Virus record (IMG/VR): IMGVR_UViG_3300027833_000166
Location: 1-29,845 of that record
Source: a virus
Length of the DNA: 29,845 nt
Strand: one strand, 5' to 3'
The notes beneath the pieces were generated by a model. It saw nothing but the letters and a program-made list of their open reading frames with translations. It did not search any database and was not told the DNA's origin. Shown one piece after another: positions 10,313 through 23,791 of the stretch. The position numbers and the translations under genes are program-made. Numbering within the stretch: the stretch's first letter is position 1; every line of letters starts with the position of its first letter.

Positions 10313-11038
10313 TTATGTTTTCATTATGTATGCTAGGGCATAGTAGGGCGGTCTGTTCTCATGGGCAGTTCCGCTACCAGTGTTGTTCGTTGTACCACTT
10401 ACAGAAACTGTGTGACTGTGGTTCCCAGCAGACCCTGTGTTTACGTTTCCGTAATTAGGGTCATTAGTTGCAAAGCCTACATAGTGCCCATCTGCTCCTC
10501 GTGGCCCATACCAACCAGATGAGTGATTGTGTGCTCCTGTAGTATTCGTAGAGCCAGTGCCACTAAAGCTGTGATTGTGTGCTGGTAGGTTGGCTGTAGA
10601 TAGGTTGACAGCATCAGTACCACCAGTGGCGTTGACTGCATAGGATGAACCAGCACCCACCACAAACCGATTACGAAGGTCTGGGGTACTGTTGGAGCCA
10701 TTACATAAGACCCAACCAGTGGGTATCGCTGAGACTGCCCCAGACCACATTATGATACCACCAGCAGGGATGGCTCCACCAGCGGCAAGGCTGTTCAGCT
10801 GTGATGTCGTGGCAGTCAATCCGTCTAACTTGTTGATCTCTGTAGTTGACGCTGTGACACCATCGAGAACATTGATTTCTGTGTGTGACGATGTGATTGC
10901 ACCAGTGACGTTTGGTAACGTAGCTTTGATGGTAGACTTGAGTAGTCTGATGTGGTCATCAGCTTGCGCCAAGCCATCTGTGGAGGCTGGGTTTGAGGCG
11001 TTGAGACTGTTGACGTAAGTTCCTGTTTCGAGTGCCAT
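10313..11038 (-). CDS. Tail-collar-domain fibre/tip protein
   Basis: 241 residues. Residues about 52-85 contain TEINVLDGVTA and TEINKLDGLTA repeats, short phased units that act as trimeric stems in phage fibres. From about residue 90, IPAGGIIMWSGAVSAIPTGW followed by VLCNG and PDLRNRFVVGAG is the classic phage tail-collar domain. The C-terminus has several H-x-H pairs (HNHSFSG, HNHSSG, HSHTVS); such pairs coordinate metal in the intertwined tips of some phage fibres. The ending RPPYYALAYIMKT is also standard for this family. It is the first gene after the long leader region and its promoter. An AGGA box lies about 10 bases upstream. The product is probably a host-recognition or baseplate-like spike; the receptor is unknown. 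Confidence 0.88.
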   Translation of the reverse strand: MALETGTYVNSLNASNPASTDGLAQADDHIRLLKSTIKATLPNVTGAITSSHTEINVLDGVTASTTEINKLDGLTATTSQLNSLAAGGAIPAGGIIMWSGAVSAIPTGWVLCNGSNSTPDLRNRFVVGAGSSYAVNATGGTDAVNLSTANLPAHNHSFSGTGSTNTTGAHNHSSGWYGPRGADGHYVGFATNDPNYGNVNTGSAGNHSHTVSVSGTTNNTGSGTAHENRPPYYALAYIMKT

Positions 11039-11408
11039 AGTTCTGGGTTCCTGACTTATGTGTTTCTGGGACGACTGATCTTCAAGAGGCCTGACAACAA
11101 CAACAACAAGCCAAGGGTTTAGCTGCGTTTTTGAAATTGGATTCTGAAGTTAGGTACGGGGGTCATTTTTTGCCTAGGGAACCTAAATCGACATTCATTT
11201 CTATTGATATTATTTGTGGGCATCTGTAACCCACTGATATCATTGCATTTCTATGTAAACAGATTAGTAATCCGTTGACGACAAGGATAGCTTATTAGAC
11301 ATTAGGGAAATTTATCTGGATACATGCTCATTTCTTTGAACACAGAATACAGACACACAGACCTTAGTTACACCTATGTATCTACCTATGTCACACCAAT
11401 GTCATCAC

Positions 11409-11549
11409 TTACGTCTCCCAACGTTTATCCTTGTGACACCAAGGGCAATCACTATGTGCTTCGACAGCAATGCTGCTCCGGTTAATACCAAAGTCTTTCA
11501 GCTCTGGATCAGACGCCATTCTAAGACGATCAGCAGACCTGTTTGCCAT
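11409..11549 (-). CDS. Possible 46-residue CxxC peptide
   Basis: A short frame beginning MANRSADRLRMASDPELKDF and ending CPWCHKDKRWET. The composition is protein-like (charged and helical, then a CPWC pair) and unlike the surrounding non-coding bases. The same frame stays open upstream to about 11630, with a GTG directly before the ATG. No strong ribosome site precedes the ATG (only GAG about 9 bases upstream). It lies in the leader of the virion transcript, downstream of the phage promoter. CxxC peptides of this size are often small zinc-binding regulators, but function cannot be assigned and the call is tentative. Confidence 0.4.
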   Translation of the reverse strand: MANRSADRLRMASDPELKDFGINRSSIAVEAHSDCPWCHKDKRWET

Positions 11550-11683
11550 CACATGGTACTCATATGCTCCAAGCCATAGGACGATAGTCTTCAATGTTCT
11601 CACTGTTACTCTAAGTGTAAGTACTAGCATTGGTCATATGTCTTTCTATATGTATTAATCGTAGTGGTAGTAGTCGTTATGTA

Positions 11684-11791
11684 TTAACTCTTCAGTAAAC
11701 TCATGTGTCTCAACAAACGGATCTCAACTCGCGGGAGTTCAACGCCTGTATCTTCGGGAGAGAACGACATATGAGTTTACAGAAGAACTAA
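11684..11791 (-). ncRNA. Long-stem structured RNA element in virion-operon leader
   Basis: The arms 11690-11709 and 11766-11785 are inverted repeats matching at 18 of 20 positions. Pairing continues outward (11684-11693 with 11782-11791) across a small internal loop. Inside the 56-base apical region a short AACTC-CCGC-GAGTT hairpin can form. On the minus strand the element begins about 40 bases after the promoter at 11828-11852, so it would lie near the 5' end of the virion mRNA. It could be an mRNA-stabilising 5' structure, an RNase III processing site, a small RNA, or a DNA site. The fold is seen; the function is inferred. Confidence 0.55.
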
Positions 11792-11827
11792 CAGCTGTAG
11801 TTACCTGTGTGCTATGACACCAACGTT

Positions 11828-11852
11828 TCTCTATTAGGGTGGACACAAGGTC
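11828..11852 (-). promoter_or_regulatory. Phage RNA-polymerase promoter P3 (virion block)
   Basis: On the minus strand the site reads GACCTTGTGTCCACCCTA then ATAGAGA. It matches the sites at 20942-20965 and 23610-23632 over the whole GACCTTnTGTCCACCCTA block, with one extra A before the AGAGA region. The CAC..TA..AGAGA outline recalls the T7 class of promoters. It is the only such site ahead of the collar and virion genes. Confidence 0.8.
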
Positions 11853-20941: not shown

Positions 20942-20965
20942 TCTCTATAGGGTGGACACAAGGTC
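20942..20965 (-). promoter_or_regulatory. Phage RNA-polymerase promoter P2 (replication operon)
   Basis: The minus strand reads GACCTTGTGTCCACCCTA then TAGAGA, starting two bases after the RNAP stop codon. The TATAGAGA end is the closest of the three sites to a T7-type initiation region. It would drive SSB, endonuclease I, primase-helicase and the genes after them. Confidence 0.85.
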
Positions 20966-20966
20966 G

Positions 20967-23588
20967 TTAACTAAAACAATACTCACTTTCTAATACGCCA
21001 TTTAGATCCAAGTTACCTTTTTTAGGGATTGCCGGCAGTTTCTGCTCTGGGTTTGCTAGGCGCTGTCTGATGTGCTTCTCAAACTCTGCGTACAAGCATT
21101 TGTCTTTAAAAGTAGCAACAAACGAATGGCGAATGCAGTGGTACATAGTCCAAGTATCCTGGACTGTTGTAGCAAATGAATCATGTATCATAAAATAATC
21201 CGTAATGTCATTATCCAGACACAAGAGAACTGTGCTCTGCATGAGACTTGCGTCAAGTGAGTGTACATAGTTAGCCGCCACAGCTGCCCTCATCTTACGC
21301 TTGTCTATCTGGTAAGGGTTTGGCTCTCGAGTAGTCACTTGCTTGCGTACAAGTGCTTTTACTTTGCGATCCCACAAGTAGACTTTAGTCTTCTTCTTTG
21401 TCCACTTTGTGTACGACATGACTACAGGAAACCCAGACGGTGTTTGCCAACGTACCGACTTACCTTCACTAGAGACGGCATCTGTCATCCCTTGTAAGAA
21501 CTCCATACCTACAGCCACTGACTTTGTGACGTTCTGTACAGAGTTGTAGTTGATCTCAGCTAGATACCTTGCGTTGGTGGTCTGCTGTCTCCTAGTGCCA
21601 AAGTGGTGCTTCATAAGTTCACCTGGATTAGCAATGTTGTGCTTTGCTACAGAGCGGCGCATAGGTATCATGATCTGTGTAACTAATTGATCAGTGAACC
21701 CTGCTACAACACTGGAGTAACCGTAGGTCATTGTATTAGTTTTGACCTGTTTACGACCAACACCAAAGTCTAACCAAAGACCAGCTGTCATACAGCCTTC
21801 TTTGCGCCTCTGATTGAGAACACTGACTGTCTGCTTTGCAACATCAGAATAAACGTCCTGGCAATCAGGCATAGGTATTAGGTTTGTTTTCCTTCCGTCC
21901 TCAGTGTCCAGAGATAGAGCTGAGTAGATCTGGGTGCCTGAGTTCGTCGCATCCATCCCGACAGGAAGGTAAGCTACCCAATCATCACCTTGATCAATCA
22001 TGTCAGCATAAGCCTGGCAAGCAGCCAAATATTGAAACGGCTTGTCTGCGGCAGACCAGTGATCAAATGTACCTTTGTAGTCACTAGCAACTTCCATAAT
22101 CATGAGGTGGTTGTCAGACACCCATTGCATTCGGTCTTCCAGGCACTTCTTATCAATGCCATCAAAGGCTCCAGTGTTGGCAACAGCAACCATGACCCAT
22201 CCACGATTTTCTGCTGTGACCTTCTTACCGTTGGCCATGAGAAACAATGCTTTTACGTGATCATCGCGGTGGTAGTTGAATGTAGACACTGGGTACATCC
22301 TAGATCTCCAACAGAAGTTCCACGGCAAGTAGAACTGCTCGTACTCGTTCATCTCATTTGCTGTCTTAATGACAACACGTAAGTTTTCTCTAGACGCATC
22401 AGCTTCACGTAGCTTTAAGTGGTGTTCTTTTCGCTCTGCAAAGATCTCTTCAATGATATCTGCATCCATTTCCATGAGATTTTCTGGCACTATAGGTAGC
22501 TGTGGATCTACGATAATTGGGAAATCATCAAGTAGTCCTTTTTCTATAGCTCTACCGCCTTTGATCTCATCTTGTACCCAAGACAATGCATCCAAGACAC
22601 CTTCATTGATTTTCAGAGGTGTAGCTTGGATGGCGTTTAGCGCCTTGACGTAACTAGGTTCTACATAGTTGACAAAGTGTCTATCGATTGCATCCTTTTG
22701 CTCCTTACAAGCACCGCGCACAAGAGACACAGAGCCAGCGAGGGCAGGGTCATAGTAGCAACCAGTGTCAAAAGACGTCCAAGGCTTTGGTGGTACAATC
22801 ATTGGGCCATACATAGGCTCTGCCCAAGATGCATCGATCTCTAGTGTCTTCAGCTCTTCTCTAGCTTCATCAGTTAGACCTATGCAGAACTTAGTCTTTC
22901 TTTTGACCTGGGCCTTGCCGTCTTTGCCTCTAACTACCTCTCCTTTAACTTTAACTACAGTCACTGGGTTTGGGTCGGCATCAAATTCCATGAAGAGGTC
23001 AGACACTTTTAAGACAGCATTTAGTACACAGCTACCAGCTTTTTTACATCTAGGTGCATCCCATTTCTCAGGTTTGTAGCCACCTTTGTTTGCGATGATT
23101 CTAGCAGCCTTAATTCGGTAGCGTTGACTAGTGTGATCCTTAGTGACTTTAGCTTCAATCCGTCTAGCCATATGTGGGTCGTAATCCTTTAGACCCAGCG
23201 CCCAGTTCTCTAGTTCAATCCTACGACCAATAGATGTCAAAGTCGTGGTTTTAGATGCAAACTTTAGTATACTATCGAAACACATGTTTAGACCTATGTA
23301 GGCAAGTGTATCTATGTCCACTCCCACCACGTCTTTATAAAAGTCAAACACACGGCCTTTAGTGCCGCCGCAGTTGAACTTAGCTTCTTCAGCCTCAAAG
23401 ACCTTTGTAAGTTCTGCGGCGACTGCCGGTAGTGCTTTAGTTATAAGTTTATGGGGTTCGTTTTTTAACGATGCTGACTTTAGAGCGTTAGACCTTTTAG
23501 TGTATCTTTGTTCACCGTTGTCTATCATTAGTCTTTCGAGTTCGACTTGTTTATTCACAAGTTCTTCATTGTTTACTGCTCTGCTCAT
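20967..23588 (-). CDS. Single-subunit DNA-dependent RNA polymerase (T7 gp1-like)
   Basis: 873 residues from the ATG at 23588 (T7 has 883). GGGAG lies about 9 bases upstream, and an ATGA overlap links it to the 68-residue gene. It transcribes phage genes from its own promoters. Motif A is LPVGMDATNSGTQIYSAL (D546, T7 D537). Motif B keeps the R-x3-K-x7-Y spacing: R612, K616 and Y624 in GRKQVKTNTMTYGYSS. Motif C is FMIHDSFATT (H801, D802, T7 D812). FYLPWNFCWRSRMYPVSTFN (419-438) matches the T7 region that reads FxxxxDxRGRxY; here it is WRSRMYP. The C-terminus ends in Cys-Phe-Ser; T7 ends in a similar short hydrophobic foot. It contains no early stop or frameshift. It lies between promoters P1 and P2. 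Confidence 0.96.
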   Translation of the reverse strand: MSRAVNNEELVNKQVELERLMIDNGEQRYTKRSNALKSASLKNEPHKLITKALPAVAAELTKVFEAEEAKFNCGGTKGRVFDFYKDVVGVDIDTLAYIGLNMCFDSILKFASKTTTLTSIGRRIELENWALGLKDYDPHMARRIEAKVTKDHTSQRYRIKAARIIANKGGYKPEKWDAPRCKKAGSCVLNAVLKVSDLFMEFDADPNPVTVVKVKGEVVRGKDGKAQVKRKTKFCIGLTDEAREELKTLEIDASWAEPMYGPMIVPPKPWTSFDTGCYYDPALAGSVSLVRGACKEQKDAIDRHFVNYVEPSYVKALNAIQATPLKINEGVLDALSWVQDEIKGGRAIEKGLLDDFPIIVDPQLPIVPENLMEMDADIIEEIFAERKEHHLKLREADASRENLRVVIKTANEMNEYEQFYLPWNFCWRSRMYPVSTFNYHRDDHVKALFLMANGKKVTAENRGWVMVAVANTGAFDGIDKKCLEDRMQWVSDNHLMIMEVASDYKGTFDHWSAADKPFQYLAACQAYADMIDQGDDWVAYLPVGMDATNSGTQIYSALSLDTEDGRKTNLIPMPDCQDVYSDVAKQTVSVLNQRRKEGCMTAGLWLDFGVGRKQVKTNTMTYGYSSVVAGFTDQLVTQIMIPMRRSVAKHNIANPGELMKHHFGTRRQQTTNARYLAEINYNSVQNVTKSVAVGMEFLQGMTDAVSSEGKSVRWQTPSGFPVVMSYTKWTKKKTKVYLWDRKVKALVRKQVTTREPNPYQIDKRKMRAAVAANYVHSLDASLMQSTVLLCLDNDITDYFMIHDSFATTVQDTWTMYHCIRHSFVATFKDKCLYAEFEKHIRQRLANPEQKLPAIPKKGNLDLNGVLESEYCFS

Positions 23589-23791
23589 ACTTTTGTTCTC
23601 CCTTGTGTACTCTGTAGGGTGGACAGAAGGTCTAGAGCCATAGAAACAAGGGGTGGGCCTGTGTATGGATTTACCCAAGAGGACACTGGCCTAGAGTTGC
23701 CACCGTTAGATTGGTTTAAGGCCGATATTATCTTCAACATGTTACACCAAAACATTGTTTTTACAGTTAGTGTGTCAGCTTGTTCTTTCAT
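23585..23791 (-). CDS. Small protein coupled to RNA polymerase (68 aa)
   Basis: 68 residues beginning MKEQADTLTVKTMFWCNMLK, with AGGGAG about 9 bases before the ATG. The stop codon overlaps the RNAP start as ATGA, so translation is likely coupled. The middle is Asn/Ser/Pro/Gly-rich (SNGGNSRPVSSWVNPYTGPP) and the end is ALDLLSTLQSTQGRTKV. No domain is recognised and there is no clear membrane segment. The last quarter of the gene also carries promoter P1 in its DNA. It may be a host-takeover peptide, or mainly a device for setting RNAP translation. Confidence 0.6.
   Translation of the reverse strand: MKEQADTLTVKTMFWCNMLKIISALNQSNGGNSRPVSSWVNPYTGPPLVSMALDLLSTLQSTQGRTKV
23610..23632 (-). promoter_or_regulatory. 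Phage RNA-polymerase promoter P1 (upstream of RNAP)
   Basis: The minus strand reads GACCTTCTGTCCACCCTA then CAGAG, differing from P2 by one base in the upstream block and by C for T before AGAG. It sits inside the end of the 68-residue gene, about 25 bases before the RNAP start codon. It would let the polymerase amplify its own gene after first being made from a host promoter. Confidence 0.75.

Follow-up and report, generated by a model that had tools for sequence, protein, structure and literature searches.

The window analyzed here, a virus record of 29,845 bases (G000), carries at the head of its virion transcript a long stem-loop that is real and structured, and that is probably a functional leader RNA (Table 1). 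The element is to date uncatalogued as an RNA family: neither the window nor any of 12 relatives had an Rfam family reaching the gathering score, and the weaker matches (up to E=5) were unrelated, snoRNA-like chance matches. The reading that we favor, at about even chances, is that of a structured 5'-leader RNA of the late (virion) transcript, acting in cis as a stabilizer and/or as an RNase-processed stem-loop. It would be a new form of a type of phage leader stem-loop that is already known and, if functional, makes late gene expression of such phages amenable to testing.

Table 1. Positions of the stem-loop, of the surrounding leader features and of the putative promoters in the window.
Feature	Position	Strand	Basis or context
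First virion gene, tail/collar fiber-like protein, opening the virion and packaging operon	10313..11038	minus	PHROGs; gene order in complete relative
Family-wide conserved DNA element, (TTG)5-6, TGACCCCC, ATTTCAAAA	11045..11187	minus	directly upstream of tail gene
DUF1127-like small protein gene, 71-73 aa, C-terminal H..CPWC motif	11409..11630	minus	amino-acid conservation
Whole element, long stem and loop	11682-11793	minus (transcribed)	
3' arm of the long stem	11682..11709	minus	fold, inverted repeat, pair counts
56-nt loop	11710..11765	minus	alignments of relatives
Inner hairpin inside the loop, two helices of 7 bp	11713..11749	minus	fold and pair counts
Unpaired C-rich stretch GUUCUCUCCCGAAGAU in the loop; CUCCCGAA invariant across all relatives	11750-11765	minus	alignments
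5' arm of the long stem	11766..11793	minus	fold, inverted repeat, pair counts
P3, putative phage RNA-polymerase promoter, CCTTGTGTCCACCCTAATAG	11829..11850	minus	repeat of motif; conserved in relatives
P2, P3-like copy just past the end of the RNA polymerase gene	20945-20963	minus	
T7-type single-subunit RNA polymerase gene	20967-23678	minus	
P1, P3-like copy at the start of the RNA polymerase gene	23612-23630	minus	

All main genes of the window lie on the minus strand, in a series made of a tail-fiber-like protein, lysis genes, an integrase, a methyltransferase, the T7-type single-subunit RNA polymerase, an ssDNA-binding protein, a primase/helicase, a DNA polymerase, an exonuclease, a ribonucleotide reductase, the leader, and then the tail and other virion genes. 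The label "virion transcript" is right, since in a complete relative the leader is followed by the tail gene and then by genes for an ejection protein, terminase and portal. This relative (L262-L264, 41,074 bases) is a mosaic: one strand carries the genes for replication and for the T7-type RNA polymerase, the opposite strand those for the virion and lysis, and the terminase and portal genes lie in the middle of its virion operon. No DNA match to any isolated phage was found in a collection of 50,697 records, and the RNA polymerase of the window shares at most 28% identity with those of isolates; a scan of 84,980 prokaryote genomes gave no relatives of this polymerase at its sensitivity. The host is likely an alphaproteobacterium (roseobacter), because of the relatives of the ribonucleotide reductase and of the roseophages that carry the small protein described below. 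The window has no tRNA, and no sigma-70 promoter or intrinsic terminator was found within the leader.

The inverted repeat on which the initial annotation had focused is real: its 26-nt arms (11684-11709 and 11766-11791) are 85% complementary and separated by 56 nt. Folding of the minus-strand RNA gives helices of 12, 10, and 4 bp with two 1x1 mismatches between them, and reproduces the 56-base loop with an inner hairpin that had been described (-38.8 kcal/mol over 148 nt, z -2.5). A good fold is likewise obtained for the plus strand, over a shorter stretch (z -3.6). When the whole window was scanned for ungapped stems, this was the sole stem scoring at least 17, and hence the strongest, with 20.5 on the minus and 17.5 on the plus strand; the same scan of 12 shuffled windows returned at most one stem, with a score of 17. 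The minus strand scores above the plus strand because G-U pairs turn into A-C mismatches on the latter.

A promoter-like motif, CCTTGTGTCCACCCTA..AG, occurs in three minus-strand copies in the window. P1, P2, and P3 presumably act as promoters for the phage RNA polymerase, since the motif is repeated and suitably placed and a single-subunit RNA polymerase is encoded. The base of the stem lies about 36 nt past the presumed RNA start at P3 and the stem is 646 nt away from the tail gene, close to the distances of about 40 and 650 bases proposed beforehand. Among the three promoters, only P3, that of the virion genes, precedes such a stem, with no comparable one after P1 or P2. This is equally the case for two sister genomes, G005 and G006, whose promoter sequences are unrelated: there, a strong fold follows the virion promoter and not the early ones, and the virion leaders of these two genomes reach -67 and -73 kcal/mol per 199 nt, versus -27 to -47 at early promoters. 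For the L159 lineage, a first-guess promoter was dropped because the strong fold lies upstream of the guessed site.

Besides the window itself, eight contigs from close relatives cover the leader, and every one of them keeps the stem-loop. When seven distinct sequences were aligned for pair counts, 98.9% of the paired cells remained paired. At four variable pairs the pairing is retained (GU/GC, UG/CG, UA/UG, and AU/GU), two pairs are lost in some members, with one stem pair lost in two relatives, and in the most divergent member, L007, both main-stem mismatches become pairs (U-U to U-A and A-C to A-U). Pairing is thus maintained across relatives, but the compensatory changes that the initial annotation had named as support for an RNA function were not found in the element of the window: none of its 40 pairs is changed on both sides, all changes being one-sided among seven sequences too similar for this to be decisive. 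Its structure consequently rests on conservation and thermodynamics. Gap-free columns are invariant more often in the hairpin (96 of 111) than in the flanking spacers (42 of 67; p=4e-4), and this is also true of the loop alone (48 of 55; p=0.003 versus spacers), whose conservation about equals that of the stem. The leader stretch between the small gene and the conserved DNA element is similar to the hairpin in this respect (160 of 190 columns invariant). A covariance model of the element matches only its close relatives. Scanning viral contigs at the DNA level added no members either, as the three additional exact matches proved to be unrelated.

In other phages, the place upstream of this tail gene is taken by different long stem-loops, whose sequences are unrelated to that of the window, and it is in one family of these that compensatory changes are clear. 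Six compensated pairs were counted in family 3 (16 sequences), with 96.3% of cells paired; its covariation score was matched by none of 500 shuffles, and slid registers came nowhere near it. Its apical loop CUUCCCUU is invariant, the sequences having been gathered by that very motif. Family 2 keeps the loop CUCCCAGCC while its stem exchanges C-G for G-C and A-U for G-C, and family 4 has a CCUCCCA loop; more generally, CUCCC or CUUCCC is present in loops of the sister lineages' own stem-loops. No Rfam match was found for representatives of the sister families. More distant contigs also show stable folds upstream of the DUF1127-like gene, and in some sister lineages the stem-loop occurs without this gene, the slot holding another small gene or none. 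One such slot occupant is another conserved small protein (LGQAG.DW.W), seen in L069, L070, L071, L073, L074, L075, and L082. In one sister lineage, a promoter-like TTAATACTTATGTCACCCTT precedes a hairpin whose loop is rich in CUCCUCC, behind which comes a terminator-like hairpin (L170:3139-3290, L223:4557, L175:1006, and similar sites). The sister elements parallel that of the window in place and build; their common ancestry is unproven, as the covariance model fails to bridge lineages. Together, these elements suggest that the virion-transcript leader is a fixed site for several structured RNA families, as yet uncatalogued, among uncultured marine podoviruses that encode a T7-type RNA polymerase. 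The proposal that the virion transcript begins with a functional RNA gains support from the restriction of the stem to P3, its retention in relatives and the sister stem-loops at the same place.

The leader is not simply non-coding. Its 646 nt hold a small gene, overlooked in the initial annotation, and a family-wide DNA element, so that the argument from retained non-coding DNA loses its footing even though its outcome, a functional RNA, is well supported. The small gene of the window encodes a 73-aa protein that is widespread in uncultured marine phages, is conserved across many contigs despite diverged DNA, and combines a DUF1127-like core (LKDIGITRG) with a C-terminal H..CPWC. Five of 10 family members match Pfam DUF1127 (best E 3.5e-4), and matches in sister contigs lie below the cut-off; the window's own protein has no match to this family (PF06568) and does not reach the gathering cut-off. 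It shares with DUF1127 proteins the LKDIGI.R core and the size, and differs from them by the extra C-terminal H..C.WC motif and by lying below Pfam detection. Relatives of the small protein are found in the isolated roseophages CRP-114, -227, -361, -113, -171, and -125, near the genome end and after the maturase gene, and DUF1127 is unmentioned in the published account of roseobacter Autographiviridae phages (PMC11092137). Among 84,980 prokaryote genomes, no relatives were detected at the sensitivity of that scan. The protein is an undescribed neighbor of the leader RNA and resembles a host RNA-binding family.

How could such a leader act? Place, strand, and strength of the stem-loop fit a role in cis. 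The phage RNA polymerase would start at P3 and, within about 36 nt, transcribe the 26-bp stem with its partly structured loop. This stem would stabilize the 5' end of the long late mRNA and/or be cut by a host double-strand RNase of the RNase III type, in which case the message encoding the DUF1127-like protein and the virion proteins would be severed from a short leader RNA. Late transcripts of phage T7 have RNase III sites and 5' stem-loops (R-sites). Both phages have a T7-type RNA polymerase, and the window's element shares with the T7 sites a long imperfect stem located tens of bases past a phage promoter and before late genes. It differs from R-sites in its larger size, its conserved loop, its occurrence only after the virion promoter and the small gene next to it, and cleavage is here putative. 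A multi-site arrangement of the T7 type was not found either, there being no comparable stem at P1, at P2 or elsewhere in the window. In addition, a loop as conserved as the stem would be needless for a pure RNase III site.

This loop conservation would suit a function in trans, which we regard as a tentative alternative, clearly below the cis-acting leader in probability. The stem-loop would then be excised from the leader and its exposed CUCCC loop would pair with Shine-Dalgarno-like GGGAG in host or phage messages, in the manner of CcsR/cuckoo RNAs and possibly with the DUF1127-like protein as a partner. The CcsR/cuckoo loop motif is CCUCCUCCC, longer than that of the phage. With these sRNAs of the DUF1127/CIN1 locus, the phage element has in common a C-rich loop and a stem-loop located in one presumed transcript with a DUF1127-type gene; it precedes this gene, whereas CcsR follows it, and it has neither an Rfam match nor a significant motif enrichment. 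CcsR-like sRNAs do sit beside DUF1127 genes in alphaproteobacteria (PMC10253847), and the trans-acting reading further draws on the CUCCC or CUUCCC of sister loops and on the CUCCUCC-rich hairpin that, in one sister lineage, follows another promoter-like sequence. The loop can also pair with the GGGAGAAC that precedes the RNA polymerase and MazG genes; however, its pairing with phage start regions is no better than that of shuffled loops (71 of 200 as good). Likewise, CUCCC is present and conserved in the window's loop but its 22 occurrences are no significant excess over the 13.4 expected from local composition, shuffles giving up to 30, and while the DUF1127-like gene follows the stem-loop on the same strand here, sister stem-loops also occur without it. 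By analogy, the phage lineage might even possess its own module of DUF1127 protein and C-rich-loop RNA, placed at the head of the virion transcript and seizing host post-transcriptional control late in infection. We consider this doubtful; if functional, such a module would be the phage counterpart of a host sRNA-protein locus.

The presence of the small gene raises another, unlikely explanation, namely that the leader regulates this gene in cis, either by the 5' arm alternating between the 3' arm and the start of the small gene or by attenuation as in Sinorhizobium. Such a switch could make use of a 14-nt, 93% complementarity between 11761-11774 and 11634-11647, in the start region of the small gene, but this alternative pairing is missing in L007 and the switch was therefore rejected. 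Leader-controlled DUF1127 genes with C-rich elements are known, one in Sinorhizobium meliloti having an attenuating leader which, like that of the phage, is structured, C-rich and upstream of a DUF1127 gene (PMC12218461). The S. meliloti leader needs a translated upstream frame, whereas the phage leader has no conserved one: a possible 28-codon frame spanning the hairpin lacks a ribosome-binding site and carries a frameshift in L007, and was ruled out on these grounds. Other lineages, moreover, pair the stem-loop with another small gene or with none. A DNA-level element, such as a cruciform, a replication start or a packaging or recombination signal, is quite improbable. The initial annotation had allowed for RNA or DNA, and the arms are indeed near-perfect as DNA too, in a leader that includes the DNA element conserved throughout the family and, for one relative, an attachment-site-like antisense tRNA-Tyr; DNA is nonetheless less likely than RNA, because the G-U pairs and the one-sided changes (U-A/U-G and G-U/G-C) fit pairing on the transcribed strand, and because arm sequences vary across lineages while the stem-loop position persists. 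Finally, a functionless, incidental palindrome is hardly credible. The sequence is common to a few close relatives only, but shuffled windows do not reach the strength of the stem, all relatives keep it, and sister lineages offer positional parallels.

Two other leader features are also of note. The conserved DNA stretch directly upstream of the tail gene, which also includes GGCTAAAG, is found at the same place in about 20 relatives, across all lineages. No consensus fold was obtained for it (11045-11187), and it is possibly a packaging, end or recombination signal. In one sister phage, an antisense tRNA-Tyr (GTA) lies directly upstream of the leader (L088:51-134, minus strand) and is likely an attachment site for the integrase; related tRNA-like remnants are present in others.
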